Positions 14,619 to 34,271 of a stretch of DNA of 35,106 nt are shown one piece after another (the stretch's first letter is position 1; the number at the start of each line of letters is the position of its first letter). The translations under genes were made by a program, and so were the position numbers. Source of the DNA: an uncultured Clostridia bacterium. GTDB lineage: Bacteria; Bacillota; Clostridia; Oscillospirales; Acutalibacteraceae. Location of the stretch: NCBI GenBank assembly GCA_947628665.1, contig CANRAU010000022.1, forward strand, positions 1 through 35,106. Reading direction: 5' to 3'. Below the pieces are notes generated by a model. That model saw nothing but the letters and a program-made list of their open reading frames with translations, did not search any database and was not told the DNA's origin.

Positions 14619-14677
14619 GCAAAATCCCTCGCTATGCAATACATCTGTATTGCTTATTGTAAGTCCGATAAGCACAA

Positions 14678-14715: not shown

Positions 14716-14733
14716 GCATACGAGGTGATTGGT

Positions 14734-14955: not shown

Positions 14956-15012
14956 ATCCGACCTTGCGCAGATGCGCAATAGACCAACAGGGAAAATTCT
15001 TTTTACTTGCAG

Positions 15013-16577: not shown

Positions 16578-17471
16578 ATGTCTGAAATTACGTATCTTAC
16601 TGCCGAAATTCTCGCTTCATTCCGCTCTTACCTGATCATCGAGGAAAAGTCCGAATTTACAATCGCCAAATACCTGCGCGACGTCGCCGCGTTCGCGAAC
16701 TTTCTAAACGGAGAGCCGCTGTCCAAAGAGCTCATGCTGGCATACAAAACGTATCTCATGGAGTGCGGCAAATTTGCGGATTCCAGCATCAACTCTATTC
16801 TGTCGTCTGTCCGCGCGTTCCTCAAATTTATTGACCGATCAGACTGTAATGTGAAAAATCTCCGAATTCAGGAGATGCCATTCAACCCGGAGGAAAAATG
16901 CTTGACGCAGGATGAATTCGGGCGTCTGCTGAACGCGGCGAAAGGGGATCGGCGGCTCTATCTGTTGTTGCTCGTGATCTCCTCGACGGGGATCCGCGTA
17001 TCGGAATTGAAATATTTCACGGTTGAATCGTTCCGCTCCAAGCTCGAGAGCGTCCGCGTCATGGTACGCTGCAAAAAGAAAAACCGCCGCGTGCTGGTGG
17101 CAGACAGCCTGAAGAAAATGATCGTAGCATACATTCGAGAAAAAGGGATCAAGTCCGGCCCGATCTTCTGCACGAAAAGCGGGAAACCGCTGGATCGGAG
17201 CAATATTTGGAAACAGATGAAGCGGCTCTGCGAAAAAGCGAACGTTGCGCAGAGTAAGGTGTTCCCGCATAATCTGCGCAAGCTGTTTGCACGGACGTTT
17301 TACGAAGCGACGCACGACATCGTACAGCTTGCCGCGCTGCTCGGTCACAGCAGCATCAACACGACGAGAATTTATGTGCAGACGACGGAGGAAGAAGTCC
17401 GCGCAAGAGTAGAGCAAATGGTGAGCCGGAAATACTTCGAGAAAAGAAAAGACACCACATTATCAGCATAA
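16578..17471 (+). CDS. tyrosine recombinase (integrase/invertase type)
   Basis: A 297-aa tyrosine recombinase of XerC/D size. Residues about 10-88 are a SAM-like core-binding domain (TIAKYLRDVAAFANFL). The catalytic domain follows, with all expected residues: Arg140 (SSTGIRVSEL), Lys168/169 in the beta-hairpin (RCKKKNRR), His231 and Arg234 (HNLRKLF), His257 (LLGHSS) and the nucleophile Tyr266 (TTRIYVQT). AAGGAG stands 10 nt before the ATG. It lacks an N-terminal arm-binding domain, as expected for enzymes acting on simple inverted sites. Its last five codons lie inside the left copy of a 25-bp inverted repeat whose partner is 289 bp away, so I infer that it inverts the segment between them. 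An alternative, weaker reading is an integrase of a decayed element. Confidence 0.93.
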   Translation: MSEITYLTAEILASFRSYLIIEEKSEFTIAKYLRDVAAFANFLNGEPLSKELMLAYKTYLMECGKFADSSINSILSSVRAFLKFIDRSDCNVKNLRIQEMPFNPEEKCLTQDEFGRLLNAAKGDRRLYLLLLVISSTGIRVSELKYFTVESFRSKLESVRVMVRCKKKNRRVLVADSLKKMIVAYIREKGIKSGPIFCTKSGKPLDRSNIWKQMKRLCEKANVAQSKVFPHNLRKLFARTFYEATHDIVQLAALLGHSSINTTRIYVQTTEEEVRARVEQMVSRKYFEKRKDTTLSA

Positions 17472-17478
17472 TGTGGTA
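17454..17478 (+). repeat. left inverted recombination site (IRL)
   Basis: A 25-bp site: 10-bp arms ACCACATTAT and ATAATGTGGT around the asymmetric core CAGC, plus one A. It is an exact reverse complement of 17768-17792. It contains the recombinase stop codon (17469-17471); as both copies are identical, inversion leaves the recombinase C-terminus unchanged. Confidence 0.85.
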
Positions 17479-17521
17479 AATACACAGCTTTTAGCGGCAC
17501 GCAGTAAACCATGTTTTGCTC

Positions 17522-17550
17522 ATTGTAGCATGTTTCAATTTGTATTTCAA
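17522..17550 (-). promoter_or_regulatory. sigma-A promoter inside the invertible segment
   Basis: Minus strand TTGAAA (17545-17550), an ideal 17-bp spacer and TACAAT (17522-17527). In the given orientation it would transcribe left, through the left site and antisense to the end of the recombinase gene. Confidence 0.75.
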
Positions 17551-17708
17551 GATGTACGCCGCAAAAAAATCACGCATTTACTCGGCCAATTTATGACTTT
17601 ATTACCAAACGCACCAAATTTGTGAATGTTAGGCATAGAGACAAAGCCCTTGCTGTTTTCACTCGTAGAATGGGAATGCATGGGCTCTCTTATCATACTT
17701 TAAAATAC

Positions 17709-17728
17709 GCGTTGGAGAGCGCTTTTTT
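17709..17728 (+). terminator. short intrinsic terminator inside the invertible segment
   Basis: GCGTT/AGCGC stem (one wobble) with a GGAG loop, followed by six T residues (17723-17728). It would stop read-through from the recombinase before it reaches the helicase gene. Confidence 0.55.
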
Positions 17729-17767
17729 CGTGCTTCAGCGTGTTGGTGTTTTTTATTTATTGTTCTG

Positions 17768-17792
17768 TACCACATTATGCTGATAATGTGGT
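17768..17792 (-). repeat. right inverted recombination site (IRR)
   Basis: Exact reverse complement of 17454-17478 over 25 bp; core reads GCTG on the plus strand. It marks the right edge of the invertible segment. Confidence 0.85.
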
Positions 17793-17827
17793 AAAGTTGG
17801 ACGAAGATAACAATTTAGAAAAAAGTT

Positions 17828-17868
17828 ACGGCGGCGAAAAAGCACTTTCCAAGCATTTTCGCCGCCGT
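17828..17868 (+). promoter_or_regulatory. strong leader hairpin upstream of the helicase gene
   Basis: ACGGCGGCGAAAA pairs perfectly with TTTTCGCCGCCGT (13 bp) over a 15-nt loop, outside the invertible segment and 30 bp before the start codon. No T tract follows, so it is not a plain terminator. It could be a protein-binding or translation-control element, or stabilise the mRNA. Confidence 0.5.
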
Positions 17869-17898
17869 TATCCGTGTCTGTCGAAGGGAGGAGACAAG

Positions 17899-20775
17899 AT
17901 GAGCATCGCATTATACGAGCATAATCGGATTGCGTATGAATCCGTTGTCTCCATGCTTGCACAGACAGGCAAGGCCGCCGTTGTGCATCCGACGGGTACA
18001 GGCAAATCGTTCATCGGCTTCAAGCTGTGCGAGGATAACCCGGACAAGACGGTTTTGTGGCTGTCGCCTTCTGCGTATATTTTCAAAACGCAGATCGAGA
18101 ACCTCGAGGCGACCGGTGCGGAAGTCCCCCAAAACATTCTTTACTTTACCTACGCCGCGCTTGCAAACATGAGCGAGGAAGAAATGGCGAAAATCAACCC
18201 CGGTCTGGCTGTGTGGGACGAATTCCATAGGGCGGGTTCGCCGATTTGGGGCGCCGCAGTTCGGAAATTTTTAAGTATGTACCCAAATGTTCCGGTACTC
18301 GGTCTGTCGGCGACCAATATTCGCTACCTCGACAACCAGCGCGATATGGCGGACGAACTGTTCGACGGTAACGTGGCCTCCGAAATGACGCTGGGCGAGG
18401 CCATCGTGCGCGGCATTCTCAGCCCGCCGAAGTACGTTACAACTGTGTATTCCTATACCAGGGATTTGGAGCGGCTTGCGCGGCGCGTAAGGCATCTGCG
18501 CAACAAGTCGCAGCGAGAAAAAGCGGAGCAATATATCGAAGCCCTCCGCCGCGCTCTTGAAATGGCGGACGGGCTGGATGTTGTTTTCGATAAAAATATG
18601 ACCGACAGAACGGGCAAGTATATCGTCTTTTGCGCGAATAAAGCGCACATGGACGAGATGCTGGAGAAGACGGGGGAGTGGTTTGCAAAACTGGATCAGA
18701 ACCCGCACGTCTATTCCGTATACGCCGACGACCCCGGCGCGTCCAAGTCCTTTGCGGCGTTCAAATCGGACGATGACAGCACCCATCTGCGACTGCTCTA
18801 TTGCATCGACGCGCTCAATGAAGGCATCCACGTCGAGAATGTAAGCGGCGTGATTCTTCTGCGCCCGACTGTTTCCCCCATTATATATAAACAGCAGATT
18901 GGGCGGGCGCTGTCTGCAAGCAAGTCTAAGGAGTCCGTGATCTTCGATATCGTCAATAACATCGCGGGATTGTACAGCATCGACTCCATCGAGGACGAAA
19001 TGCAGGAGGTTGTGCAGTATTATCAGTTCCGCGGGGAATCCGGGAACATTGTCAACGACCGATTTCGGGTCATCGACGCGGTGGAGGACTGCCGGAGGCT
19101 TTTCGACGACCTTGAGGAAACACTCTCCGCGTCGTGGGAGTTTATGTACGCGGAGGCGAAAGCATATTATGAGGCGAATGGCGATCTGCTGCCCACGCAG
19201 AGCTATGTCACCGAAAACGGTGTGAAGCTCGGCAAATGGCTTGTTACACAGCGGATCAATTACAGAAACAAAAGCGGCATTTCGCAGTCGCGGATAGATA
19301 AACTCGAGCGCATCGGCATGAACTGGCAGACGCTTCACGAACGTCAGTGGGACGAAGGGTATGCTCTCGCGCAGCAGTATTACAGGGAGCATGGCGATCT
19401 GAAACCGACCCGCCAAATGTCGGAAAAACTGGCGTACTGGCTCGTAAAGCAGCGTCAGAAGCAGCGCGAAGGACGGCTTACGGACAAGCAATTCGCAAAG
19501 CTCTCCGCGCTCGGCATGGTATGGGCGTTCGAGGACGCATGGGAACAGAAGTTTGCATTGGCAAAGCAGTACTATGAAAAGAATGGGAATCTCGATATCC
19601 CTGCTGCATACAAAACGGATGACGGGATCAGCCTGGGCGTATGGTATCGGGGCGTGCGGGATCAGTATAGAAACGGAACCCTGACAGAGGAGCGCAAACG
19701 CAGACTCGAATCCATTGGTGTGCAATGGGGGTCGGTGCAGACGCGCAACTGGATGCAGTATTATGCGCTCGCGAAGCAATATTACAAGGAACACGGCGAC
19801 CTGAACGTTCCTGCGAACTATGTGACGTCGGATGGCGTTAAGCTCGGCGTGTGGATCGCAAGCCAGCGGTACAGCATGAAAAAGAACCGTATTTCGGAGG
19901 AACAGATCCATCTGCTCGACGAAATCGGCATGAGCTGGAATCGTTTCACCGGCAAATGGAACGCGGCGTTTGCGTATGCACAGGCGTATTTCAATGCGCA
20001 TGGTGTACTCGACCCTCCCGCAGAATACAAGACCGACGATGGCTTCGCGCTCGGCGCATGGGTAGTGTCGCAGCGCCGTAAGTACGCTGCCGGCAAGCTG
20101 AAGCCCACACAGATCAAGCGATTGGAATCGCTGTCCATTGCATGGAATGTGACCGAAGAACAGTGGCAAAACGGGTATGAACACGCGATGCTGTACCATA
20201 AGGAACATGGCAATTTGAATGTATCGGACGGCTTCGTTGCGGAAGACGGTTTTCGGCTCGGCTCGTGGCTTGCCGGCCAGCGGACGCGGAACAAGAACGG
20301 CCGCATAACGCAACAGCAGCGGGAGCGACTTGATAAACTGGGCATGCAGTGGAGCGTTTTTGGAGATCGCTGGCAGCTTGGCTACGAACACGCGCAAGCG
20401 TACTTCGCACAGTATGGCAACCTGAACGTACCGTCCAAATATATCTGCGAGGACGGCTATACGCTGAACAACTGGATCACCTCGCAGAGAAAAGCGTACA
20501 AAGATGGAAAGCTGTCGGAAGAGCGTGTTCGTCTGCTGCGGCAGATCGGCATGGTTTGGAACACGAACACGGATAGGTGGAATCGCGGGTACAGCTACGC
20601 GAAGTCATACTGTGTCGGCGGTGGGCGCGTCCCCATTCCGCAGACGTATGTGACGGACGACGGCTATCCACTTGGCGAGTGGGTGCGGTCGCAGGAGCGA
20701 CGATTCCGCGGGGGTGTGCTCGAGAGCGATAAAGTGCAAAGGCTCGCCGAGATTGGAGTGATATTTGGAAGATGA
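17899..20775 (+). CDS. DEAD/DEAH-type superfamily 2 helicase with eight helicase-associated (HA) repeats
   Basis: A 958-aa protein starting at ATG 17899 behind GGAGGAG. Residues 1-345 are an SF2 helicase: Walker A HPTGTGKSF (30-38), a DEFH box (107-110, DEAH variant), motif III LSATN (136-140) and motif VI QQIGRA (332-337). From Trp413 to the end come eight tandem repeats of about 68 residues, each with the pattern W...A..YY..HG.L..P..Y...DG..LG.W...QR...., then ..L..IGM.W, as in the helicase-associated (HA, PF03457) domain; repeat 2 is shortened. HA repeats are thought to bind nucleic acid. It is first behind the invertible promoter, overlaps the next gene by 4 nt, and heads the capsule locus. 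It may be a phase-variable regulator or transcription-coupling factor for that locus; a defence role is an alternative. Both are inference. Confidence 0.9.
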   Translation: MSIALYEHNRIAYESVVSMLAQTGKAAVVHPTGTGKSFIGFKLCEDNPDKTVLWLSPSAYIFKTQIENLEATGAEVPQNILYFTYAALANMSEEEMAKINPGLAVWDEFHRAGSPIWGAAVRKFLSMYPNVPVLGLSATNIRYLDNQRDMADELFDGNVASEMTLGEAIVRGILSPPKYVTTVYSYTRDLERLARRVRHLRNKSQREKAEQYIEALRRALEMADGLDVVFDKNMTDRTGKYIVFCANKAHMDEMLEKTGEWFAKLDQNPHVYSVYADDPGASKSFAAFKSDDDSTHLRLLYCIDALNEGIHVENVSGVILLRPTVSPIIYKQQIGRALSASKSKESVIFDIVNNIAGLYSIDSIEDEMQEVVQYYQFRGESGNIVNDRFRVIDAVEDCRRLFDDLEETLSASWEFMYAEAKAYYEANGDLLPTQSYVTENGVKLGKWLVTQRINYRNKSGISQSRIDKLERIGMNWQTLHERQWDEGYALAQQYYREHGDLKPTRQMSEKLAYWLVKQRQKQREGRLTDKQFAKLSALGMVWAFEDAWEQKFALAKQYYEKNGNLDIPAAYKTDDGISLGVWYRGVRDQYRNGTLTEERKRRLESIGVQWGSVQTRNWMQYYALAKQYYKEHGDLNVPANYVTSDGVKLGVWIASQRYSMKKNRISEEQIHLLDEIGMSWNRFTGKWNAAFAYAQAYFNAHGVLDPPAEYKTDDGFALGAWVVSQRRKYAAGKLKPTQIKRLESLSIAWNVTEEQWQNGYEHAMLYHKEHGNLNVSDGFVAEDGFRLGSWLAGQRTRNKNGRITQQQRERLDKLGMQWSVFGDRWQLGYEHAQAYFAQYGNLNVPSKYICEDGYTLNNWITSQRKAYKDGKLSEERVRLLRQIGMVWNTNTDRWNRGYSYAKSYCVGGGRVPIPQTYVTDDGYPLGEWVRSQERRFRGGVLESDKVQRLAEIGVIFGR

Positions 20776-20951
20776 AAGAGGAAACAGGGTCGATCAAACA
20801 AAAAGCATCCGTCTCCGAGCCGTGTGTGGTCTGCGGGGAGGATACAGGATACACAAAAGATATACCTATTGCACAGCGGCAGTGCTACATCGAGGGTGCG
20901 GGGCAGCTTTGCCGGAAGTGCTATGCGGCGATATATTTGAAAGAAACGTAA
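20772..20951 (+). CDS. 59-aa Cys-rich (zinc-ribbon-like) protein
   Basis: A 59-aa protein whose ATG overlaps the helicase stop (ATGA), so translation is coupled. After a polar N-terminus come CVVCGEDTGYTKDIPI (Cys18, Cys21), Cys38 in RQCYIEGAGQLC, Cys47, and Cys50 in RKCY: two CxxC pairs plus one extra Cys, suited to one zinc. The YIEGAGQLC..CY pattern recalls small uncharacterised proteins next to exopolysaccharide loci of gut Clostridia. It is too small to be an enzyme and is likely an accessory factor for the helicase or a small regulator of the downstream operon. Function unknown. Confidence 0.75.
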   Translation: MKEETGSIKQKASVSEPCVVCGEDTGYTKDIPIAQRQCYIEGAGQLCRKCYAAIYLKET

Positions 20952-21249: not shown

Positions 21250-23334
21250 ATGATGAAAAGAAAATACCCCCCGGAGAATACGGGCGGTCTTGGAATAAGA
21301 AAAATCGAGCACTGGCACATTGTCACAATATGCCTGATGCTTTACGATGCCGTAGCCATAAATCTGTCGTATTTTCTCGCTTTATGGCTACGGTTTGACT
21401 GCCACTATACCAAAATCCCCGGAGAATATTTTGCAGCGTGGCTCAAGTTCACCCCGATCTATGCGGCGGTTTCGATTGTCGTACTGTGGATGTTTCGTCT
21501 TTACCGCAGCATTTGGCGCTTCGCAAGCTTTGATGAATTAAAACGTATCATTCTGAGTTCCATACTTTTGGGACTGTTCCACTCCGTATTTATAACCTTA
21601 GTATTTCTCAGGATGCCGATTTCCTATTATATCATCGGTATTGCGATACAGACTGCTCTGATACTGTTCATCAGATTCGCTTACCGCTTCATTCTCTTGG
21701 AGCGCAAGAAAAATACGAGACAGCAGCAAAAGGCGGATGCGAGTCGGGTAATGCTCATCGGCGCGGGTAGTGCAGGACAGATGGTACTGCGCGATCTGCA
21801 TAACGCCAAAGAGATAAACGAGAGAGTCTGCTGTATTATCGACGATAACAAAAACAAATGGGGACGGTATATAGACGGCGTGCCGATCGTCGGCGGCAGG
21901 GATGAAATTCTTCTGAGTGTCGAGAAATACGGAATAGAGAAGATATACCTCACGATCCCGAGTTCAACTGCGGAACAGAAGCGTGATATTCTCAATATCT
22001 GTAAGGAAACGGATTGCGAGCTCAAAAACCTTCCGGGGATCGCCGAAATAGTAAACGGAGTTGTGACCGCAAACTCGATGCGGGACGTGGCGGTCGAGGA
22101 TCTTCTTGGGCGCGAGCCAATCAGACCCGATATGGACGAAATCTACCGCTTCATCACTGGCAAGGTGATCCTTGTCACGGGAGGTGGCGGGTCGATCGGT
22201 TCTGAACTCTGTCGACAGATCGCGGCGCATAACCCGAAACAGTTGATTGTATTCGATATCTACGAAAATAACGCATATGCCATAGGTAACGAATTAAAGG
22301 ACAAGTACCCGGACTTGAGTCTGGAGGTGCTTATCGGTTCGGTGAGGGATAGCAGACGTATCAGCCAGGTTTTTGCAAGGTATAAGCCTGATGTGGTATA
22401 TCACGCCGCCGCGCATAAGCACGTTCCTCTTATGGAGGACAGTCCCTGCGAGTCTATAAAGAATAACGCCATCGGTACATATAAGACCGCATATGCCGCG
22501 ATGATGAACGGCTGCCAGCGCTTTGTCCTTATCTCAACGGACAAGGCAGTCAATCCCACAAACATTATGGGTGCGTCAAAGCGACTGTGTGAGATGATCA
22601 TACAGACCTTTGACAGAAAAATAGCGGAAGGCAGGGCGGATGAAATTAAACCGCTCCACGTCCACTCCGAGGATGCAGACGGTAATATGTGTGGCATGGC
22701 GCGTGGAATGGAGCAACCGAAGACGGAATTCGTCGCGGTTCGTTTCGGAAACGTCCTTGGTTCCAACGGCTCGGTGATACCGAGATTCAAGGAGCAGATC
22801 GCAAAAGGCGGACCTGTGACGGTCACCCATCCGGATATCATTAGATACTTTATGACAATTCCCGAGGCGGTTTCTCTTGTTTTGCAAGCCGGAACATATG
22901 CCGATAGAGGAGAGATATACGTTCTCGATATGGGAGAACCCGTAAAAATAGATACTCTTGCAAGAAATCTGATACGCCTTTCGGGGTTCACCCCGGATAA
23001 AGATATCAAGATCATATATACAGGTTTGAGAAAAGGCGAGAAACTCTACGAAGAAAAACTGATGTCCGAGGAAGGCATGAGAACGACGCCCAATAAACTG
23101 ATTTTCATCGGCAAGCCTATACCGTTCGATCCCGACGTGTTTCTGCGTAAGCTCCAGGGACTTATGACCGCTGCATACGATGGACGTGAGGACATTATCC
23201 GCGAACTTGTGGCGGATGTTGTGACAACGTTTAAGCCGGCGGAAGAGAACGGGTACGAGAAAAAGAAAACTGTCACTGACGAACATTTAGACACAAAATC
23301 ACGCAGAACATTAAAAAAGACAGCGATGCTGTAA
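21250..23334 (+). CDS. membrane-bound nucleoside-diphosphate-sugar 4,6-dehydratase (FlaA1/CapD/PglF type)
   Basis: A 694-aa protein. Four transmembrane helices (about residues 22-145) precede a first Rossmann-like domain (VMLIGAGSAGQMVLRDL at about 165) and the catalytic SDR domain with VTGGGGSIGSEL (about 310) and ISTDKAVNPTNIMGASKR (about 420), the latter holding the catalytic Lys region. This is the full-length architecture of PglF and CapD, which dehydrate UDP-GlcNAc to a 4-keto-6-deoxy sugar. With the DegT aminotransferase and the sugar-phosphate transferase that follow, it suggests a 4-amino-4,6-dideoxyhexose (bacillosamine-like) as the first sugar of the repeat unit. The last about 60 residues are polar and not conserved. 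An ATG cluster at 21243-21255 leaves the start uncertain by one codon. Confidence 0.92.
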   Translation: MMKRKYPPENTGGLGIRKIEHWHIVTICLMLYDAVAINLSYFLALWLRFDCHYTKIPGEYFAAWLKFTPIYAAVSIVVLWMFRLYRSIWRFASFDELKRIILSSILLGLFHSVFITLVFLRMPISYYIIGIAIQTALILFIRFAYRFILLERKKNTRQQQKADASRVMLIGAGSAGQMVLRDLHNAKEINERVCCIIDDNKNKWGRYIDGVPIVGGRDEILLSVEKYGIEKIYLTIPSSTAEQKRDILNICKETDCELKNLPGIAEIVNGVVTANSMRDVAVEDLLGREPIRPDMDEIYRFITGKVILVTGGGGSIGSELCRQIAAHNPKQLIVFDIYENNAYAIGNELKDKYPDLSLEVLIGSVRDSRRISQVFARYKPDVVYHAAAHKHVPLMEDSPCESIKNNAIGTYKTAYAAMMNGCQRFVLISTDKAVNPTNIMGASKRLCEMIIQTFDRKIAEGRADEIKPLHVHSEDADGNMCGMARGMEQPKTEFVAVRFGNVLGSNGSVIPRFKEQIAKGGPVTVTHPDIIRYFMTIPEAVSLVLQAGTYADRGEIYVLDMGEPVKIDTLARNLIRLSGFTPDKDIKIIYTGLRKGEKLYEEKLMSEEGMRTTPNKLIFIGKPIPFDPDVFLRKLQGLMTAAYDGREDIIRELVADVVTTFKPAEENGYEKKKTVTDEHLDTKSRRTLKKTAML

Positions 23335-23367
23335 CTGCGCTTGATTCAAAAGAAGGCATGATATTAC

Positions 23368-24585
23368 ATGTTGGAAAAAATAAGAAACGTACCGTTTTCT
23401 CCTCCTGACATTTCGGAGGCGGAGATAAATGAAGTCGCCGAGGCACTTCGGTCGGGTTGGATAACGACGGGGCCGCGCGTCAAAGAGTTTGAAAGAAAAA
23501 TAACGGAATACGTAGGCGTAAATAAGACTTGCTGTCTCAATTCCCAGACAACTTGCGCTGAAATGGCGTTGCGAGCTTTGGGCATAGGCGAGGGCGACGA
23601 GGTCATAACCTCGGCTTACACCTATACCGCGACTGCCTCGATAGTTTGCCACGTTGGCGCAAAGCTGATCCTGATTGACACTCAACCCGACAGCCTGGAA
23701 ATGGACTATGATGCCGTTGAAAGTGCAATTACTGAAAAGACAAAGGCGATAATCCCCGTTGACCTCGGCGGCGTGCCTTGTGATTACGATAGGATATTCG
23801 AGATCGTTGAAAATAAAAAATCCCTGTTCAAGCCGTCGAGTGATATTCAGAAAGTAATAGGCAGGATAGCCGTCTGCGCTGACGCCGCTCACGCTTTCGG
23901 TGCAAAGTGGCACGGCAGAATGGTAGGGAGCATAGCAGACTTTTCAAGTTTCAGCTTCCACGCAGTCAAGAATCTTACGACTGCAGAGGGCGGCGCGCTC
24001 ACTTGGAGAGCAATATCTGGAATAAGTGACGAGGATATCTATCATCAACTCCAGCTTCTGAGCCTTCACGGGCAGTCAAAGGACGCTCTCGCCAAGACGC
24101 AACTTGGCGCATGGGAGTACGATATCATCGGACCTTATTACAAGTGCAATATGACAGATATTATGGCCGCTATCGGGCTTAAACAATTTGATCGTTATCC
24201 CCAAATGCTAAAGCGCAGAAAAGAGATTATCGGAAGGTATGACGAGGCATTCCGTCCGCTTGGCGTTCGGACGCTTAACCACTACACCGACGAATACGAG
24301 TCGTCCGGGCATCTGTATATAACGAGAGTCCCGGGAATTACACTGGAACAGCGTAACGGGATCATAGTCAAAATGGCTGAGCGAGGCATTGCCTGCAATG
24401 TGCACTATAAACCGTTGCCCATGCACACGGCGTACAAAAATGTAGGCTTCAATATTAAAGATTACCCAAATGCGTACGCATATTTTGCAAATGAGATAAC
24501 TCTGCCGCTTCATACCTGCCTTTCGAATGAGGATGTGGAGTATGTGATTGGACAGTACGCAGAGGTTTTGAAGGAATACATATAG
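23368..24585 (+). CDS. DegT/DnrJ/EryC1/StrS-family sugar aminotransferase
   Basis: A 405-aa PLP enzyme. The lysine that binds PLP is Lys201 in SFHAVKNLTTAEGG, and the family's DAAHAFGAKWHG and N-terminal SGWITTGPRVKEFE are present. The C-terminal VHYKPLPMHTAY and LPLHTCLSNEDVEYV are typical of the PglE/ArnB group. It transfers an amino group, usually from glutamate, to C4 of the 4-keto sugar made by the dehydratase encoded just upstream. Together they would give UDP-4-amino-4,6-dideoxy-GlcNAc or a close relative. The gene is 33 bp after the dehydratase and ends directly before the next start, in one operon. Confidence 0.92.
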   Translation: MLEKIRNVPFSPPDISEAEINEVAEALRSGWITTGPRVKEFERKITEYVGVNKTCCLNSQTTCAEMALRALGIGEGDEVITSAYTYTATASIVCHVGAKLILIDTQPDSLEMDYDAVESAITEKTKAIIPVDLGGVPCDYDRIFEIVENKKSLFKPSSDIQKVIGRIAVCADAAHAFGAKWHGRMVGSIADFSSFSFHAVKNLTTAEGGALTWRAISGISDEDIYHQLQLLSLHGQSKDALAKTQLGAWEYDIIGPYYKCNMTDIMAAIGLKQFDRYPQMLKRRKEIIGRYDEAFRPLGVRTLNHYTDEYESSGHLYITRVPGITLEQRNGIIVKMAERGIACNVHYKPLPMHTAYKNVGFNIKDYPNAYAYFANEITLPLHTCLSNEDVEYVIGQYAEVLKEYI

Positions 24586-25344
24586 GTGAAAATCGTTAAG
24601 TGGGAACAGCTTCCAGCCGAAATGCAGATCGAAGCTGTCAGGAAATACTATGACATCTTGAAAAAGAAAAAATTTTCATTGCTTCTGAAAAGGGCGTTTG
24701 ACCTCTTTGTCTCTCTGATCGCTCTGGTTGTATTCTCGCCGATATTTTTAGTATTGGCGATAGCGATTAAGCTTGATTCACCCGGACCGGTTTTCTACCG
24801 TCAGGAGAGGGTTACACAATACGGGCGGCGGTTCCGAATCCACAAATTCCGCACGATGGTGCAGAATGCGGACAAAGGGTCTCAGGTGACGGTAAATAAT
24901 GACGGTCGCGTCACCCGCGTCGGTAGAGCAATCCGTGCCTGTAGACTGGATGAGACGGCGCAGTTGCTTGATGTGATTCGAGGCACACTCACGCTGGTCG
25001 GTACACGTCCGGAGTCGCCCCGCTTTGTCGTCGAGTATACCGATGAAATGATGGCGACACTATTGCTCCCCGCTGGGGTTACAAGCCTTGCAAGTATTTA
25101 CTATAAGGATGAAGCAAAACTGCTCGACGGAGCGGATGACACGGATAAAGTTTATATTGAAAAGATACTGCCGGAAAAGATGTACTATAACCTTCGAAGT
25201 ATAGAAAAGTTTAGCTTTTGGGGAGATATACGAATAATGTTTATGACGGTGTTTGCGGTATTCGGGAAGAAATATAAGGGAGAGTACGAAGGAACTGTGT
25301 TGAACGATGGCGAAGAGCAGATGGGTGAGATAAGTAAAGTATGA
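24586..25344 (+). CDS. initiating sugar-phosphate transferase (WcaJ/PglC family)
   Basis: A 252-aa protein starting with GTG right after the aminotransferase stop; GAAGGA lies about 11 nt upstream. It has the polyprenyl-phosphate sugar-1-phosphate transferase signatures: KRAFDLFVSLIAL re-entrant/membrane helix (about 34-58), DSPGPVFYRQERVTQYGRRFRIHKFRTM (read as two blocks at about 63-90, with Lys-Phe-Arg-Thr-Met) and LDETAQLLDVIRG with GTRPE (about 124-148). It loads the first sugar phosphate onto undecaprenyl phosphate at the inner face of the membrane. It lacks the large N-terminal domain of WcaJ, so it is the short, PglC-like form, which fits a diamino/amino-sugar donor. It overlaps the next gene by 4 nt. 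Confidence 0.9.
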   Translation: MKIVKWEQLPAEMQIEAVRKYYDILKKKKFSLLLKRAFDLFVSLIALVVFSPIFLVLAIAIKLDSPGPVFYRQERVTQYGRRFRIHKFRTMVQNADKGSQVTVNNDGRVTRVGRAIRACRLDETAQLLDVIRGTLTLVGTRPESPRFVVEYTDEMMATLLLPAGVTSLASIYYKDEAKLLDGADDTDKVYIEKILPEKMYYNLRSIEKFSFWGDIRIMFMTVFAVFGKKYKGEYEGTVLNDGEEQMGEISKV

Positions 25345-26360
25345 CGGACGTGATAATCGCATCGGTGGTTATGCCAGTGTACAATGAGGAAAAATACATT
25401 GAAAAATGTATTAATTCCTTGTTGCAACAAGACTATCCGAAGAAACAGATGGAATGGATTTTTGTTGACGGATGCTCAAAGGACAAAACGGTTGCATTGC
25501 TGAAACGGTATCAGGATAAATATCCTGAACTTATAAAGATACTGAATAATCCACATGAGATTGTGCCGAATGCGATGAACATTGGAATTGAAGCTTCTTG
25601 TGGCAAATATATTGTCCGGCTTGATGCACATGCCGATTATGCACCCGACTACATTTCAAAATGCATTTATTATCTTGAAAATACAGATGCTGAAAATGTT
25701 GGCGGTGTTGCTGAGACGAAAGCAAACGGCTTTATGGGAAATGCGATTGCAAAAATGCTTTCATCAAAGTTTGGAGTCGGCAATTCACATTTCCGAACAA
25801 GTGGAGAAAGCGGTTATGTGGATACAGTTCCTTTCGGGGCTTTCAAGAGAGAAGTGTTTTCTAAATACGGAGGATATGATGAACGCCTGATCCGCAATCA
25901 AGATAATGAAATGAATTATCGAATCAGGAAAAATGGAGGGAAAATATATTTATCTAACGATATTCATTTTACTTACTATTGCAGAGATTCCATCAAAGGA
26001 ATTGCAATAATGGCCAAAAAAAACGGGATGTGGAACATCATTACCATGAAATTGTGTCCCGGATCAATGGGATTGCGTCACTTTATTCCATTGCTATTTG
26101 TTGCTTCGATCTTTGGCCTTACTCTTTTAGGTATTATGCATCCGATTTTTTGGATGTTGCTAGGCATAGAATTAGTGCTATATCTGTTGTTGGATGTATT
26201 GTTTTCAGCAAAACAAGCGGCCAATGTAAAAGAGTTTTTTGCACTGATTTGTTTATTTCCCATATTTCACGTTGCATACGGTTTTGGCTCAATAATCGGT
26301 ATAGCGAAACTGTTTTTAAAAGAGTTCAAAACAGGCAATTATGTTAATAGAAAATTATAA
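25341..26360 (+). CDS. family 2 glycosyltransferase with C-terminal membrane helices (ExoA-like)
   Basis: A 339-aa GT-A glycosyltransferase. The N-terminus SVVMPVYNEEKYIEKCINSL, WIFVDGCSKDKT and VRLDAHADYAPDY (the DxH in place of DxD, as in ExoA-type enzymes) are clear, followed by PFGAFKREVF and the IRNQDNEMNYRIRKNG acceptor-side motif (ED-type). Three hydrophobic segments at about 245-320 anchor it. It adds the second or a later sugar to the lipid-linked unit on the cytoplasmic side. It overlaps the transferase gene (ATGA). Base composition shifts toward A+T from this gene on. Confidence 0.88.
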   Translation: MTDVIIASVVMPVYNEEKYIEKCINSLLQQDYPKKQMEWIFVDGCSKDKTVALLKRYQDKYPELIKILNNPHEIVPNAMNIGIEASCGKYIVRLDAHADYAPDYISKCIYYLENTDAENVGGVAETKANGFMGNAIAKMLSSKFGVGNSHFRTSGESGYVDTVPFGAFKREVFSKYGGYDERLIRNQDNEMNYRIRKNGGKIYLSNDIHFTYYCRDSIKGIAIMAKKNGMWNIITMKLCPGSMGLRHFIPLLFVASIFGLTLLGIMHPIFWMLLGIELVLYLLLDVLFSAKQAANVKEFFALICLFPIFHVAYGFGSIIGIAKLFLKEFKTGNYVNRKL

Positions 26361-26379
26361 TTAAGAGGTAGATATCAAC

Positions 26380-27702
26380 ATGTCATTTTACAACGAACTC
26401 ATAAATAAAGAAGAGAGGCTTTCCCTCGTCGGTCTTGGCTATGTCGGCATGCCGATTGCTGTTGCTTTCGCCCAAAAGGGCATAGATGTTATCGGCTTTG
26501 ATTTGAACAAATCCAAAATTGACCTGTACAAATCAGGTATCGATCCGACCAAAGAGGTCGGCGATGACGCTATAAAGAATACGGCTGTGCATTTTACATC
26601 GGACGAAAAAGATTTGCAGAAAGCAAAGTTTCACATTGTTGCCGTTCCGACCCCTGTTAATACCGACCATACGCCCGACCTTACCCCGGTGATTGGCGCA
26701 TCCGAAATCGTTGGCAGAAACCTTACAAAAGGTTCGTATGTCGTTTTTGAATCTACTGTCTATCCAGGATGTACCGAGGACGTGTGTGTCCCGATTTTAG
26801 AAAAGGAATCCGGTCTAAAATGCGGCGAGGATTTTAAAGTTGGGTATTCACCCGAAAGAATTAATCCCGGCGATAAGGTACACAGACTTGAAAATATCAG
26901 AAAAATCGTTTCCGGTTGCGACGAGGAAGCCTTGCAAACTATTAAGTCCGTGTATGATATTGTAATCGAAGTCGGGACATATCCTGTCAGTAATATTCGG
27001 ACTGCGGAAGCTGTCAAGGTCGTTGAGAACAGCCAGCGTGACATCAACATTGCCTTCATGAATGAGTTGGCGATGGTATTTGACAAGATGGACATCGATA
27101 CCAATGAAGTTGTTGACGGCATGAATACCAAATGGAATGCCCTTGGTTTTCGTCCGGGACTTGTTGGCGGACATTGCATCGGTGTAGATCCGTACTATTT
27201 TACTTACGAAGCGGAGAAACTTGGATATCACAGCCAGATTATTTTAAATGGGCGTATTGTAAACGACAGCATAGGCAAATATGTCGCGGATGCAGCAATC
27301 AAAAAGATGATCGAGGCCGGACAAGCACCGAAGAAATCGAAAGTTGTCATTCTCGGCATCACCTTTAAGGAAAACTGTCCGGATACTAGAAACTCAAAGG
27401 TTGATGATATTATCAAACGCCTGAATGAATATGGTATTGAGCCGATTGTGGTCGATCCGTGGGCAAGTGAACGCGATGCGTTGCATGAATACGGCATCAC
27501 ATTGACAAAGCTTGAAGATGTCAAAGACGCAGACTGCATGATTGTGGCGGTTGCACATAATGAATTTCGAGCGCTTTCTTTGGAAGATATCAAGAAAATG
27601 TACAGCTCGGGAGATGTTGCTGAAAAGGTGATTATTGATGTCAAGGGATTGTACAAAGTAAGCGATCTTGATGCATCCGGTCTGAATTGGTGGAGACTAT
27701 GA
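26380..27702 (+). CDS. nucleotide-sugar dehydrogenase (UDP-HexNAc 6-dehydrogenase, WbpO/TviB/WecC-like)
   Basis: A 440-aa member of the UDP-glucose/GDP-mannose dehydrogenase family. The NAD-binding LVGLGYVGMPIAVAFA (about 17-32), VPTPVN, ESTVYPGCTE, YSPERINPGD, the helix AEAVKVVENSQRDINIA and the catalytic Cys266 in GGHCIGVDPYY are all present, and the C-terminal GITFKENCPDTRNSK is intact. It oxidises C6 of a UDP-sugar to the carboxylate with two NAD+. The sequence style (YSPERINPGD, NTKWNALGFRPGLVGGHC) points to the UDP-GlcNAc/GalNAc group rather than UDP-glucose, giving an aminouronic acid for the capsule. GAGG precedes the ATG by 12 nt. Confidence 0.92.
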   Translation: MSFYNELINKEERLSLVGLGYVGMPIAVAFAQKGIDVIGFDLNKSKIDLYKSGIDPTKEVGDDAIKNTAVHFTSDEKDLQKAKFHIVAVPTPVNTDHTPDLTPVIGASEIVGRNLTKGSYVVFESTVYPGCTEDVCVPILEKESGLKCGEDFKVGYSPERINPGDKVHRLENIRKIVSGCDEEALQTIKSVYDIVIEVGTYPVSNIRTAEAVKVVENSQRDINIAFMNELAMVFDKMDIDTNEVVDGMNTKWNALGFRPGLVGGHCIGVDPYYFTYEAEKLGYHSQIILNGRIVNDSIGKYVADAAIKKMIEAGQAPKKSKVVILGITFKENCPDTRNSKVDDIIKRLNEYGIEPIVVDPWASERDALHEYGITLTKLEDVKDADCMIVAVAHNEFRALSLEDIKKMYSSGDVAEKVIIDVKGLYKVSDLDASGLNWWRL

Positions 27703-27703
27703 G

Positions 27704-28225
27704 ATGAAAATCAAAATTTACAAATTCTTTTTAGGCACAATTGGAAAAATTCTGCCGCTCCGGCGCCATCCGGGGGTATAGCTAACCATATTCGTTGTCT
27801 GTTTGTTAGAGGAATCGTAAATAAAATGAGACTGTATTGTGGAATCCGGAGCGGAGATACTTGGAGGATGCACTTTTGGGGATTGTACATCTATCGGTTC
27901 TCATTGCATGATTGGTGCGAAGTGCATTTCCAAAGGACATAATATGATGGGATCGAATGTGCATATCTATACAACCAATCACATCTACGATGAACGTAAT
28001 CATAAATTTAACGGAAGTACGGAACCGATTCCAGTTACAATCGGTGAATATGTGTGGATAGGTTAAGGAGCAATTATATTGCCATGCGTAACAATAGGAG
28101 ATCATGTAATAATCGGGGCTGGAAGCGTCGTTACGCAAGACATTCCCAGCGGCGTGATGGCGGCCGGGAATCCCTGCGTTGTAAAAAAAGTTATTGATTC
28201 CAAGTATTATAAGGGAAATGATTGA
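27704..28225 (+). pseudogene. broken hexapeptide-repeat O-acetyltransferase (WbbJ/Maa-like)
   Basis: A start ATG right after the dehydrogenase, an early TAG at 27779-27781, more stops before 27835, then an in-frame left-handed beta-helix region (GGCTFGDCTSIGSHCMIGAK, then the acetyltransferase pattern HIYTTNH) from about 27842. A TAA at 28064-28066 interrupts VWIG-GAIILP where family members have VWIGxGAII. The remaining IGAGSVVTQDIPSG and MAAGNPCVVKKV run in the same frame to a stop at 28225, directly adjacent to the next gene. So at least two lesions inactivate it, but it still has near full length, which means the loss is recent. The capsule would lack one acetyl group. Confidence 0.85.
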
Positions 28226-29335
28226 GTGAAGGTTTTACATATCAACTGTAACTACATTGGGACAGCGCTACATCAGACGATGATTGAACATTTAGAAAAG
28301 TTCGGCTGTGAGAATCAGGTTTATGTGCCGACCTACGATAAATCAGTAGGTGTAATTACACCGAATAAAAATGTATTGGTTTCCGAGTGCTTCAGGAAAT
28401 GGGATCGGCTTGTTTTTGATTATAAGCAATCAAAAATACGGAAGGATGTGGAGTCGAAGATAGATATAACCGCTTTTGACTGCATTCATGCGTATACTCT
28501 TTTTACGGATGGAAATTGTGCAAAGAAACTGTCTGAAAGATATCATATTCCCTATGTTGTTGCAGTGCGAAACACAGATGTTAATATATTTCTTGCTCAT
28601 AACCCCTTTTTTCGAAAGCGCGGCGTGGAAATCATGAAAGGGGCGTCTGCAATCTTCTTCCTCTCGGATGCCTATCGCAAAGAGGTTTTTGAAAAGTACA
28701 TATCTTTCCGAGATGCACAGGAATTATCGAAGAAAGTGAGAATTATTCCCAACGGAATAGATGACTTTTGGTTACAGAACACGCCGCAAGAAATGGAAGC
28801 AAGGATATTAGGCAATAAAATCAGACTTATTTATGCGGGAAGAATAGATAAAAACAAGAACATCGTAACAACGCAACAGGCAATGCGTTTACTCCGGGGA
28901 CAAGGATATGATGTGACCCTGACTGTAGTCGGAAAAATTGTAGATCAAAAGGTGTATAAGTCGATATCTAAAGATCCGTATACGATATGCATTCCGCCTC
29001 AGCCAAAAGAAAAGCTAATTGACTACTACCGCGCAAGCGATATATTTGTTATGCCGTCCTTTCATGAAACCTTCGGACTTGTTTATGCGGAGGCTATGAG
29101 TCAGGGACTGCCGGCTATATATACAAGAGGGCAAGGATTTGATGAGCAATTTGAGGACGGATTGGTTGGAAATGCTGTTAATGCAGCTTCTGCGGAAGAT
29201 ATAGCAGATAAGATAAAACGAATTTGGAATAATTATATTAAAGTAAGAGATAATTGCCTGCATTGCTTTCAGAAATTCGATTGGAATAAAATTTCGTCTC
29301 TTTACTTTAATATATATACGAGTTTGGATAGCTAA
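28226..29335 (+). CDS. family 4 (GT-B) glycosyltransferase
   Basis: A 369-aa protein starting with GTG directly after the acetyltransferase pseudogene. It has the GT-B retaining layout: an N-terminal acceptor domain (LHINCNYIGTALHQTMIEHL), VRIIPNGIDDFW in the linker, LIYAGRIDKNKN at the start of the donor domain, and the EX7E region HETFGLVYAEAMSQGLPAIYT at about 275-295. It transfers a sugar from a nucleotide donor to the lipid-linked intermediate in the cytoplasm. Donor and linkage cannot be told. Only 1 bp separates it from the next gene. Confidence 0.9.
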   Translation: MKVLHINCNYIGTALHQTMIEHLEKFGCENQVYVPTYDKSVGVITPNKNVLVSECFRKWDRLVFDYKQSKIRKDVESKIDITAFDCIHAYTLFTDGNCAKKLSERYHIPYVVAVRNTDVNIFLAHNPFFRKRGVEIMKGASAIFFLSDAYRKEVFEKYISFRDAQELSKKVRIIPNGIDDFWLQNTPQEMEARILGNKIRLIYAGRIDKNKNIVTTQQAMRLLRGQGYDVTLTVVGKIVDQKVYKSISKDPYTICIPPQPKEKLIDYYRASDIFVMPSFHETFGLVYAEAMSQGLPAIYTRGQGFDEQFEDGLVGNAVNAASAEDIADKIKRIWNNYIKVRDNCLHCFQKFDWNKISSLYFNIYTSLDS

Positions 29336-29336
29336 A

Positions 29337-30305
29337 ATGAGATTTTCAGTTGTTGTGCCTGTTTACAGGACGGAAGAATATATCCGTGAATGCGTAGACA
29401 GCATATTAAATCAGACCTACAAGGATTTTGAACTAATCCTTGTGGATGACGGCAGTCCGGACAGATGCCCGGAGATTTGCGACCAATATGTTGCCTTAGA
29501 CAATCGAATCCGTGTTATACATAAACCCAACGGTGGATTATCCGAAGCCAGAAACTTTGGTATTCAAGCGGCAAAGGGCGATTATCTTGTATTTGTCGAT
29601 TCCGATGACGCACTGATGCCGGACGCCTTGGAGCATATCGCGTTATGTACCGCGCACGACCCTGACGTAGTCATCACAGAATTGTATAATACCACAGATA
29701 TGCGGTTGGATTGCATTGCACAGAAGGATTTGTTCACCTTGCCGCAGGCGGAAGATGTACATTCGATGATTGCCTTTGTGTTTCAGAAAAAGGAACATAC
29801 ATGGGCTTCCGTACAGTATATCTTGCGAAGACAGATGGTTATAGACCATCATCTAAAATATGACGTGGGATACTATCACGAGGATATGAGCTGGACGCCG
29901 CGCCTGTTCATCTATGCCAAATGTATCGCTTTCTATAATCAAATCTGGTATGTTCGCAGATTGAATCGTGATGGGTCTATAACAAATACCGCATCTTATA
30001 GAAAGATAAAAGACGCTCTGACTTTAATTGTAAATGAGATTCATTCAGATGCATACAGTGTGCTGCCAAGAGAAGACATGGAAATTGTCTTTTGTAGCTT
30101 AGTTGGATCGATCTTCAGTACACTTAATCGTTGTTCCTGCTGCTCTGAGACAGAAATAAAATTATTGGCAGATTATATGGATAAAAACTTCGATGTGTTT
30201 AGGTACGCAAGAAAAATAAAGCATAGGGTGTTTGTGACATTTGCGAAACTTTTTGGAGTTGAAAAGACATTGCGCATTTGTATAAGTTATCGGAGGCATA
30301 AATGA
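29337..30305 (+). CDS. family 2 glycosyltransferase
   Basis: A 322-aa GT-A enzyme with a typical N-terminus: SVVVPVYRTEEYIRECVDSIL, ILVDDGSPDRCPEICDQY, GGLSEARNFGIQAAKGDYLVFVDSDD (split here, DxD as DSDD at about 86-89). The C-terminal HEDMSWTPRLFI (about 181) corresponds to the catalytic ED motif, followed by a helical tail with a Cys cluster (CSCCSE). No membrane segment is evident. It adds one sugar of the repeat unit. It overlaps the EpsG-like gene by 4 nt (ATGA). Confidence 0.9.
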   Translation: MRFSVVVPVYRTEEYIRECVDSILNQTYKDFELILVDDGSPDRCPEICDQYVALDNRIRVIHKPNGGLSEARNFGIQAAKGDYLVFVDSDDALMPDALEHIALCTAHDPDVVITELYNTTDMRLDCIAQKDLFTLPQAEDVHSMIAFVFQKKEHTWASVQYILRRQMVIDHHLKYDVGYYHEDMSWTPRLFIYAKCIAFYNQIWYVRRLNRDGSITNTASYRKIKDALTLIVNEIHSDAYSVLPREDMEIVFCSLVGSIFSTLNRCSCCSETEIKLLADYMDKNFDVFRYARKIKHRVFVTFAKLFGVEKTLRICISYRRHK

Positions 30306-31375
30306 TTGGGACAATTTTATTATACAATAGCGTATTACTAATATGCTATTTGGGTGCAATATATTTGGATAAAAAGCCCCAATATAAAAGTTTATCATTT
30401 TTTATAGTCATTATCATCATTACCCTCTTATCGTGCTTATGCGGATTTAGAAGTTACAATATTGGAATAGATACACATACTTATTATGCTGTGTTTGATG
30501 ACCCAGATGCTTCTTTTAGTATTGAATACGGGTTTATATTACTTTGTAAAGTATTACTGAGTGTACATTTTTCAAAAGAACTTATATTTTTTACAATATC
30601 ATTTATAACAAATACTTTGTTTGTCGTTCGTCTCTTTACATTAAGAACGATTGCCCCGATGAGATATTCTATTCCAGTCTATTATGTCATGGTCTATTTT
30701 CTGACATTTTCCGGAATAAGACAAATGCTTGCTGTTTCAATTGCATTTTTTGCTACCTATTATATTTTTGAAAGAAAAAGACTGATTACTTTTATTATTT
30801 TAGAGCTACTTGCGTCATCTATTCATACTTCTGCACTGTTTACGATTGTGTTTTTAATTCTTGAATCTCTAAGCAGAATCTCCAGCAAAAAATGGATAAT
30901 TCCTAAAATAATCTTGCTGTTGTTGTCTCCAGTTCTAATTTTTAATCTTTATACAGTACTATATGAGAATTATGGATACTTTTTTGAAAAATATGAAAAA
31001 GAGCCACGAGAAATTGGGTATATGGTTTTCTTTCGCTTAATTCTGCTTATTTTAATCATAGTCACATTCTATTTATACTTGGACAAAAGCAAAAGAGAGA
31101 ACAATGCATTAGTTAAGAAGCTATTTGTTATAGAATTTGTCACCGTATTATTTTCCGGAATTGATTATTTCTTTGCAAATATCGCTCGCATAGGATGGTA
31201 TTTTCTTGCATTTACACCGGTGTTATATGCATATGTGCTTCGCTATAAATCACGAAATATAGCTTATTTAGCGATCAAATGTATGATATGGATCTGTTTG
31301 GGATATACATATGTCCAAATGTTTCTTTCCCAGACCAACAAGCTTGTGCCATATGAGTTTTTTTGGAACATGTGA
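30302..31375 (+). CDS. EpsG-like polysaccharide polymerase (Wzy-type)
   Basis: A 357-aa protein with about ten hydrophobic helices. FRSYNIGIDTHTYY (about 50-63) and the SGIRQMLAVSIAFFATYY segment (about 138-155) are the typical EpsG marks, where a GxDT..Y and an xxRQxxA motif recur. It would polymerise lipid-linked repeat units on the outer face of the membrane. The gene is A+T-rich like its neighbours. A 245-bp stretch follows before the next gene; it holds no gene that I can support. Confidence 0.82.
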   Translation: MIGTILLYNSVLLICYLGAIYLDKKPQYKSLSFFIVIIIITLLSCLCGFRSYNIGIDTHTYYAVFDDPDASFSIEYGFILLCKVLLSVHFSKELIFFTISFITNTLFVVRLFTLRTIAPMRYSIPVYYVMVYFLTFSGIRQMLAVSIAFFATYYIFERKRLITFIILELLASSIHTSALFTIVFLILESLSRISSKKWIIPKIILLLLSPVLIFNLYTVLYENYGYFFEKYEKEPREIGYMVFFRLILLILIIVTFYLYLDKSKRENNALVKKLFVIEFVTVLFSGIDYFFANIARIGWYFLAFTPVLYAYVLRYKSRNIAYLAIKCMIWICLGYTYVQMFLSQTNKLVPYEFFWNM

Positions 31376-31620
31376 GATGTGAATAAACAATCAAATATTT
31401 TTGTTGAGACGTTAAAAACGATGCCTTACCGTAATGCAGAATTAAACGTATGATAAAACGCATGCATGAGCATGGTATTGTTCTGCTTTACATTAAAGGA
31501 AAATGCCATTTAAATTGTGGTTATACATATGGATGATGCAGAACCTGTTCACAGGCAGGAGATATATAGATTAGTTTAGTTACATTTCGTAGTTTAACAG
31601 TATATTAGAGGAAAGTGCAA

Positions 31621-32433
31621 ATGGGTGAGAATTACATACCGAAAATAATTCATTATTGTTGGTTCGGCGGAAAGCCATTGCCCGAGCTGGCGCTGAAATG
31701 CATTGCAAGTTGGAAAAAATATTGTCCCGATTATAAAATAAAGCGTTGGGACGAGACAAATTTTGATATAAACTGTTGCGAGTATGTTCGAGAGGCCTAT
31801 GAGGCAAAAATGTGGGCGTTCGTGAGCGACTATGCAAGATTTAAAATACTTTATGAAAACGGTGGCATTTACTTTGACACAGATGTAGAGTTGATAAAGC
31901 CCATAGACGACATTGTTGAGAAAGGATCGTTTATGGGTCTGGAGGAGTCAAGTGAGACATACATTGCCACCGGGCTCGGTCTTGCGGCAAATGCCGGGCT
32001 TGACCTTTTGCAGGAAATTCTTGATGACTATCATCGTTCACATTTTGAAAAAAGTAAAACCGGTTCTTATGAAACCGTTGTAACAAGAGTTACAAAAATA
32101 ATTCTAAGGCACGGAGCTATACGTCCCGACAAAATAAACACAGTCGCCGGGATAACGGTTTATCCTCCTGATTTTTTTTGCCCGTTGAACTACCACACCG
32201 GCGATTTGAACATCACAGAGAACACGCGTTCAATTCATCGTTATTTTGCAAGCTGGGTCCCCTCCGAGAACAAGGCGATTCTCAATATAAAGAAGAAATT
32301 GTGTAATAAGGGCGGGATCAGAAAACATATCGGAAATATAATAATATTTGTACTAAAGATAATTAACAAATTGAAGACAGTCGGAATAAAGGGAAGCTTG
32401 CAGTATATACGGAGTAAGCTAAAACCAACTTAA
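31621..32433 (+). CDS. GT32/OCH1-like capsular glycosyltransferase
   Basis: A 270-aa protein starting at ATG 31621, 6-7 nt after AGAGGAAA; an in-frame GTG at 31615 lies in the ribosome-binding site. It has the family pattern IPKIIHYCWFGGKPLP at the N-terminus, WAFVSDYARFKILYENGGIYFDTDVEL (split; the metal-binding DTD at about 86-88) and SIHRYFASW near 215. These glycosyltransferases with a DXD sugar-binding region are frequent in capsule loci. Donor unknown. The last 40 residues are basic and hydrophobic (GNIIIFVLKIINKLKTVG) and may sit on the membrane. Confidence 0.88.
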   Translation: MGENYIPKIIHYCWFGGKPLPELALKCIASWKKYCPDYKIKRWDETNFDINCCEYVREAYEAKMWAFVSDYARFKILYENGGIYFDTDVELIKPIDDIVEKGSFMGLEESSETYIATGLGLAANAGLDLLQEILDDYHRSHFEKSKTGSYETVVTRVTKIILRHGAIRPDKINTVAGITVYPPDFFCPLNYHTGDLNITENTRSIHRYFASWVPSENKAILNIKKKLCNKGGIRKHIGNIIIFVLKIINKLKTVGIKGSLQYIRSKLKPT

Positions 32434-32494
32434 TTTGGCGGCAGAGGCAATACGCAGTCGCTTAAGAGAGTAAGATAATTGGGAGCAAGCAATC

Positions 32495-33328
32495 ATGCTT
32501 AATAATATCAAAAGAATCATAAGAAGACTTATCAATTTTTTCCTTCATTGTGTTTCGGTCATTATTGTTACCGTATCTGGAAAAAGGAAAGAATCGCTCA
32601 ATTACTTAAAAAGTGTAAAAGATAAATACAAAGGTCAAAGGTGCTTTGTTATAGGCAATGGGCCGAGCCTGACGGCAAAGGATTTGGACAGGCTCAAAGG
32701 GGAAATAACATTCGCATCAAACAGGATATACAAAATATTTGATTCGACCGACTGGAGACCAACGTATTTTACAATATTTGATGAAGGCGTCGCAAGAGCG
32801 GAAGGCGTAATTGACGGCATAAATTCATTCAACTGTGAAATGAAATTTGTCAGAGAGGAAGGTCAGTATATTTTCGGAAAAATAAACGAACCGATTTGTT
32901 ATATACGTTCTCATTCCTCCAGAAAGTATCTCGATAACCCGAATTTTTCTGAAAATATGGTTGAAAAAGCATATTCGATAGCGACCGTAACCTATATATC
33001 GCTTCAGCTTGCGAGGCATATGGGCTTTTCCGAAATCTATCTTTTGGGTATGGATAATCAGTACGCATATTCTATGTTAAGAGACGGAACAATCGTGAAA
33101 AACGATAACGGAAAGGACTATTTCGGCGATAAAGCGGATAAAAGCACAGGTGAATCCGAGACGATGCCAAAATTCGCACCGGCTACATGGGAAATGGATG
33201 CGGCGTATAATTTTGCCGAAAAATACTCACGGGAGCATAATTTCAGAATATACAACGCCACCCGTGGGGGAAGGCTCGAAACGTTTGAAAGAGTGGATTT
33301 TGACAGCCTGTTTGATAATATCAAATGA
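32495..33328 (+). CDS. DUF115 / 6-hydroxymethylpterin pyrophosphokinase MptE-like protein
   Basis: A 277-aa protein. After a hydrophobic N-terminal helix (about 13-28) comes CFVIGNGPSLTAKDLDRLKG, the hallmark of the DUF115/MptE-like fold. EIYLLGMDNQY and the C-terminal YNATRGGRLETFERVDF complete it. In bacteria this fold occurs in Maf-type motility accessory factors that handle nonulosonic acids and in capsule loci. The next genes (CMP-sugar synthetase, a cytidylyltransferase remnant, an aldolase) also point to an ulosonic acid, so I infer that this protein acts with that sugar, perhaps as its transferase. It is 16 bp before the KdsB-like gene. Confidence 0.8.
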   Translation: MLNNIKRIIRRLINFFLHCVSVIIVTVSGKRKESLNYLKSVKDKYKGQRCFVIGNGPSLTAKDLDRLKGEITFASNRIYKIFDSTDWRPTYFTIFDEGVARAEGVIDGINSFNCEMKFVREEGQYIFGKINEPICYIRSHSSRKYLDNPNFSENMVEKAYSIATVTYISLQLARHMGFSEIYLLGMDNQYAYSMLRDGTIVKNDNGKDYFGDKADKSTGESETMPKFAPATWEMDAAYNFAEKYSREHNFRIYNATRGGRLETFERVDFDSLFDNIK

Positions 33329-33344
33329 TAAAGGAGAGATAACT

Positions 33345-34100: not shown

Positions 34101-34111
34101 AGGTTTATACC
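34086..34111. repeat. 26-bp perfect palindrome across the kdsB stop codon
   Basis: Left half GGTATAAACCTTT, right half its exact reverse complement; the kdsB TAA lies at the centre. There is no T tract, so termination is not assured. It could be an mRNA-processing or end-stabilising hairpin, or a junction. Confidence 0.55.
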
Positions 34112-34140
34112 GTTCCAAGGACATGCAGCGCTTCCGTTAA

Positions 34141-34269: not shown

Positions 34270-34271
34270 AA

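Follow-up and report, generated by a model that had tools for sequence, protein, structure and literature searches.

A predicted promoter-inversion cassette with its own tyrosine recombinase upstream of helicase and capsule-type genes in an uncultured gut Clostridia bacterium

The stretch of DNA analysed here (contig C22, 35106 bases, referred to as the window), which belongs to a 2.0-Mb assembly of 35 contigs, raises the question of whether a short segment between inverted repeats, placed between a tyrosine recombinase gene and a helicase gene followed by capsule-type genes, operates as a promoter switch and, if so, which genes it controls. We consider it highly probable (about 0.85) that this is a self-contained phase-variation cassette, in which flipping of the promoter segment switches a helicase–capsule operon. 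In the mechanism proposed, the recombinase would act at two palindromic sites and invert the 289-bp segment between them. In the present orientation, the operon would be OFF because the promoter is directed at the recombinase, with a terminator-like hairpin oriented toward the helicase. After inversion, the promoter would be directed rightward, so that the leader hairpin, the HA-repeat helicase, the 59-aa ORF, and the capsule genes would be transcribed. Flipping in this strain, its current OFF state, and a single ON transcript spanning the helicase and capsule genes are predictions made from sequence. The features concerned are as follows.

16578..17471, plus strand: tyrosine recombinase of 297 aa (PF00589, E 4.7e-27), with its stop codon within the left arm
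17454..17478, plus strand: left recombination site (arm), palindromic, core CAGC, with a T-rich tract after the arm on the minus strand
17522..17550, minus strand: promoter TTGAAA-17-TACAAT, its -10 preceded by TG, directed toward the recombinase (presumed OFF orientation)
17637..17690, strand not assigned: imperfect hairpin within the segment, with z -1.9 for the plus strand and -2.6 for the minus strand
17707..17743, plus strand: terminator-like hairpin (z -2.8) with a T-rich tail; as the segment now lies, it faces the helicase
17768..17792, plus strand: right recombination site (arm), core GCTG, with no T tract after the arm on the plus strand
17828..17868, plus strand: leader hairpin between the right arm and the helicase, with a similar one in 4 other loci
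17899..20775, plus strand: SF2-type helicase with 8 HA stretches (PF03457, E 4e-143; PF04851; PF00271)
20772..20951, plus strand: 59-aa ORF, read from the sequence, its start overlapping the helicase stop
21250..35072, plus strand: genes of capsule or exopolysaccharide type, which extend nearly to the end of the contig

The original prediction had described exact 25-bp inverted repeats, each with palindromic arms around a 4-bp core, an intact tyrosine recombinase gene ending inside the left repeat, and a promoter between the repeats facing away from the helicase, and all of these elements were confirmed. The two arms are complementary at 25/25 positions with a spacing of 289 nt, and both contain ACCACATTAT-NNNN-ATAATGTGGT, the core being CAGC in the left arm and GCTG in the right arm. 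When the 24-mer site pattern was searched for in the 2.0-Mb assembly with up to 3 mismatches allowed, only two occurrences were obtained, both at the switch. For exact inverted repeats with arms at most 1000 bp apart, the maximum length in 40 order-1 shuffles of the window was 16 bp, compared with the real arms of 25 bp; the top inverted repeat of the real window in the same test was 30 bp, is separate from the switch arms, and probably represents hairpins near 14369-15057. Two similar palindromic hairpins with T-rich ends were observed there, to the left of the switch, at 14369-14411 and 15015-15057, with a 603-bp stretch between them. A 28-nt inverted repeat with 89% complementarity was also observed at 5405-5432 and 5655-5682, its arms being 222 nt apart.

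The recombinase retains R140, K168, H231, R234, H257, and Y266, which we take to be the catalytic set of tyrosine recombinases, each with a conservation of 1.0 (rounded) among 104 aligned relatives, and this set together with the Phage_integrase domain places it in the tyrosine recombinase family. It matches XerA/XerD-type models over its full length, yet under the curated NCBIfam equivalog cut-offs, with 157.1 bits against 220 for XerA, 129 against 329.6 for XerD, and 120.7 against 335.15 for XerC. The scores for the tyrosine-type DNA invertase models NF007370 and NF007371 were 23.6 bits against 221 and 19.8 against 222, respectively, and the nearest solved structures by sequence were Xer-type recombinases. 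Of 394 genomes sampled from the order, only that of the window itself had the recombinase at E 1e-90. Relatives at 76-79% (L035-L042) came from MAGs named Lapin, which are probably of rabbit origin, and they may be absent among the 394 sampled genomes simply because they were not drawn. A 117-aa ORF resembling an XRE-type HTH regulator by eye lies divergently from the recombinase (15771-16124, minus strand); this small gene was rejected as a partner of the switch because it had just one distant match in the loci examined. A phage origin was also rejected, viral contigs having neither an exact match to the site pattern nor a relative of the recombinase by peptide patterns.

The promoter within the segment, read from 17550 to 17522, matches the consensus at 10/12 positions, and its score was equalled in 1 of 1000 shuffles of the segment when either direction was counted. 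The inverted repeats hence enclose a promoter, as identified by consensus only, next to a recombinase, which is the architecture of a promoter inverton. The hairpin at 17707..17743 is predicted to have terminator activity.

We examined 118 recombinase genes, of which 115 were distinct, the duplicates L111, L112, and L113 (= L035, L042, and L041) being left out of the distinct-locus counts. By a strict search, 58 of the distinct loci, including the window, have a repeat pair just past the recombinase gene. Among the other 57 loci, 18 ended within 450 bp after the gene and 39 had context, 28 of which showed an exact inverted repeat of at least 13 bp in the same place by a relaxed search counted by eye. 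Both searches together indicated the repeat pair in 86 of the 97 recombinase loci with enough sequence, and the remaining 11 had no clear pair. Subfamilies differ in site sequence, and the palindrome around a variable core of ~4 bp is mostly kept. Among 52 unique segments, the best promoter score had a mean of 13.1, compared with 9.5 in shuffles, and was 12.5 or higher in 46, compared with 1.2% of shuffles; the median distance from the -10 end to the near arm was 43 bp. In the 51 unique segments with a called direction, terminator-like hairpins were present against the promoter direction in 37 and with it in 41, compared with 14 and 17, respectively, in shuffled segments (one plain letter shuffle per segment). 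The left site was observed to be doubled next to the recombinase in L036 (6870-6990) and L053 (5036-5121).

With respect to orientation, the promoters of the 58 loci were directed toward the recombinase (minus) in 49 and outward (plus) in 7, with 2 undecided, so that the comparison of related genomes suggested by the original prediction did reveal both orientations. Four helicase loci obtained later added 1 minus and 3 plus promoters (the direction in L222 being judged by eye), one shared orientation thereby accounting for 50 of 60 oriented loci. Outward promoters were commoner at helicase loci (6 plus and 4 minus, or 6/10, the loci concerned being L042, L107, L229, L222, L227, and L037) than elsewhere (4 plus and 46 minus, or 4/50), and this excess may reflect shared descent, the rows being related. 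Many copies of the family per genome were observed in G455, G450, and G041 (= G526), several of them at contig ends; at E 1e-60, G455 had 14 copies, of which 2 were plus, 9 were minus, and 3 had no visible pair, and G450 had 8. Contigs ending at a switch could be explained equally well by several similar copies or by mixed orientation.

Furthermore, segment homology was judged without regard to the promoter, and 7 of 116 similar pairs were found to be inverted, homology and promoter direction being concordant in all 112 callable pairs. The clearest case was that of L037, of which the segment aligned with those of L039 and L040 with inverted local scores of 349 and 374, compared with forward scores of 50 and 49. 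The inverted alignments had 233/269 and 238/269 matches, whereas the forward ones had 173/240 and 176/238 with many gaps, and the adjoining recombinase DNA matched at 815 and 803 of 854 positions (94-95% identical). These alignments indicate that inversion has occurred among L037, L039, and L040, because the enclosed DNA aligns inverted beside near-identical recombinases. L039 and L040 are near-twins, and the case therefore amounts to about one event; no helicase lies next to either. The remaining five inverted pairs all include L168 and are weaker, with scores of 72-94 against 24-43; L168 and L172, for example, had 188/245 matches inverted and 164/214 forward. None of five close relatives compared had an inverted homologue of the segment in the window; the only similar segment was that of L038, with a weak likeness in the same orientation. 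The promoter-inversion reading is supported by relatives that have the same architecture in both orientations and by this one clear inverted homologous segment. In L039 (2075-2892) and L040 (6844-7663), a third site was also observed ~500 bp past the segment, preceded by a second promoter match on the plus strand, which looks like two cassettes in tandem.

The predominance of one promoter direction (49/58) could be taken in two other ways. The locus might be a frozen relic, in which the repeats serve as binding sites of the recombinase or as terminators and inversion has ceased here; the arms do fold into hairpins, and the left one is accompanied by a T tract. However, the 25-bp arms are perfect, the catalytic residues are retained, and close relatives show inversion, and we regard such a relic as very unlikely. 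Alternatively, the present orientation might itself be the functional state, in which antisense RNA over the recombinase sets the rate of flipping and the effect on the operon is secondary. We give this slightly less credence still, since the hairpin of the left arm and its T tract could stop such a transcript. In the 58 loci, the T fraction of the outward strand was 0.49 outside the left arm and 0.20 outside the right, and five T within the first eight outward bases were present in 21/58 and 5/58 loci, respectively, a T-rich outward strand from which it follows that transcription in the OFF direction might end at the left arm, although the comparison is weakened by the relatedness of the rows and by the possibility that gene ends are A-rich for other reasons.

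A further alternative concerns the target, namely that flipping of the segment affects the helicase and the 59-aa ORF alone and that the capsule operon is transcribed from a promoter of its own. Both the ~300-bp gap that separates the capsule genes from the 59-aa ORF and a single weak promoter-like site at 20909 are consistent with this, as is L038, which has the helicase and no capsule match within the sequence available for the locus. Against it, no terminator-like site was found in 20700-21300, and the helicase and capsule-type genes were found together in 10 of 15 further helicase neighbourhoods that had been identified without reference to the recombinase (L216-L223, L228, and L230; L220 weakly). 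In two of the others, L224 and L225 (30-31% identity), there were no capsule-type genes in the neighbourhood, and L226, L227, and L229 had little or no downstream sequence. For comparison, 4 of 111 loci without a helicase match (2 duplicates, many short) matched the capsule proteins of the window. Control of the helicase and the small ORF alone is, accordingly, judged unlikely, and the helicase–capsule operon is the likely target of the switch.

The capsule region of the window includes Polysacc_synt_2, DegT, sugar transferase, glycosyltransferase, UDP-sugar dehydrogenase, EpsG, cytidylyltransferase, and other families. An HA helicase adjoins the recombinase in six distinct loci (the window, L037, L038, L042, L058, and L107), and capsule-type genes follow in five of them, the match in L042 being a 41-residue piece at the contig end. 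At strict E-values, the helicase alone was found in 2/98 relatives, 11/394 genomes of the order, and 8/196 relatives of G431, counts that include the window's or G431's own genome. The recombinase was present in 4 of the 15 independent helicase neighbourhoods; L230 stops just beyond one single site, and L219 has a capsule-type gene between the switch and the helicase. Seven helicase loci lacking the switch had 350 bp or more of upstream DNA; in only two of these, L221 and L223, is the helicase preceded by a fixed promoter of full consensus (TTGACA-17-TATAAT with TG upstream), the promoter scores being 12.5 in L220 and 8-11 in the other four. These observations fit, without proving, the idea that the promoter of the operon may be either fixed or invertible.

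In the fimbrial switch of FimB/FimE, a promoter is inverted by a tyrosine recombinase encoded next to it, and in Bacteroides the recombinase Mpi inverts capsule promoters. The window shares the former arrangement, but its recombinase is XerA/XerD-like and far under the cut-offs of the invertase-type models, unlike FimB/FimE. As in Bacteroides, promoters would be inverted before capsule operons at several loci per genome; the original analogy with those capsule promoters held for the mechanism and failed for the first gene, which is an HA-repeat helicase rather than a UpxY-type (NusG-like) gene, with no NusG-type match in a search of family profiles. In the present case, every locus has a recombinase and the helicase comes first, whereas the Bacteroides switches have the UpxY antiterminator, according to the available part of PMC11892184. 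That part also describes inverton group 139, consisting of 33 invertons, 32 from Clostridia and nearly all near a tyrosine-type recombinase, which goes with invertase group 35, with orientation shifts measured from reads; the coordinates of two examples give repeats of 26 bp with a spacing of 205 bp and repeats of 14 bp with a spacing of 227 bp. By description, the family of the window resembles this group in the class of the host, the type of enzyme, and the length of the segment. The switch type, clostridial invertons with adjacent tyrosine recombinases, is thus already published (PMC11892184, available part). In C. difficile, RecV likewise combines a tyrosine recombinase with small invertible segments in a clostridium, but it serves at least two switches (PMC5903667, available part), whereas the site pattern of the window occurs only beside its own recombinase gene. 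The less familiar part is the HA-repeat helicase heading a switched capsule operon, which looks unusual: the available text of PMC11892184 does not contain the word helicase, no description of an HA helicase with a switched capsule operon was found in the literature searched by title and abstract start, and no paper in that search joined 'helicase associated domain' and 'exopolysaccharide'.

As for the helicase itself, a mechanical call places its ORF at 17740-20775, and its start is taken as 17899, behind a sequence resembling a ribosome site. A role in defence is not preferred because the PADLOC matches fall within residues 79-377 of the window protein, its helicase part, and a Pfam search indicated no nuclease domain. 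A leader hairpin was recognized by eye in 5 of 20 regions upstream of helicases (the window, L037, L038, L042, and L229); the folded alignment had 15 pairs, 4 with a change on both sides, and several inner pairs were broken, the covariation term being slightly unfavourable (+0.84). Rfam gave no match in 16300-21400 up to E 1. We speculate that this hairpin may be an attenuator or antitermination element. It is also conceivable, if rather doubtful, that gut Clostridia use the HA-repeat helicase as a factor dedicated to the capsule operon, in place of the NusG-like antiterminators of Bacteroides, and that the helicase together with the leader hairpin sets the expression of its own operon or silences other capsule loci; if so, one flip would select one coat.

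Under the phase-variation reading, compact promoter switches, each accompanied by a recombinase of its own, are present in uncultured gut Clostridia at up to 14 per sampled genome, and the orientation of each is readable from sequence. The association of the HA-repeat helicase with capsule-type operons, whether switched or not, makes the role of the helicase directly testable. In L216 (5267-10928), a tandem pair of HA helicases was observed before capsule-type genes.
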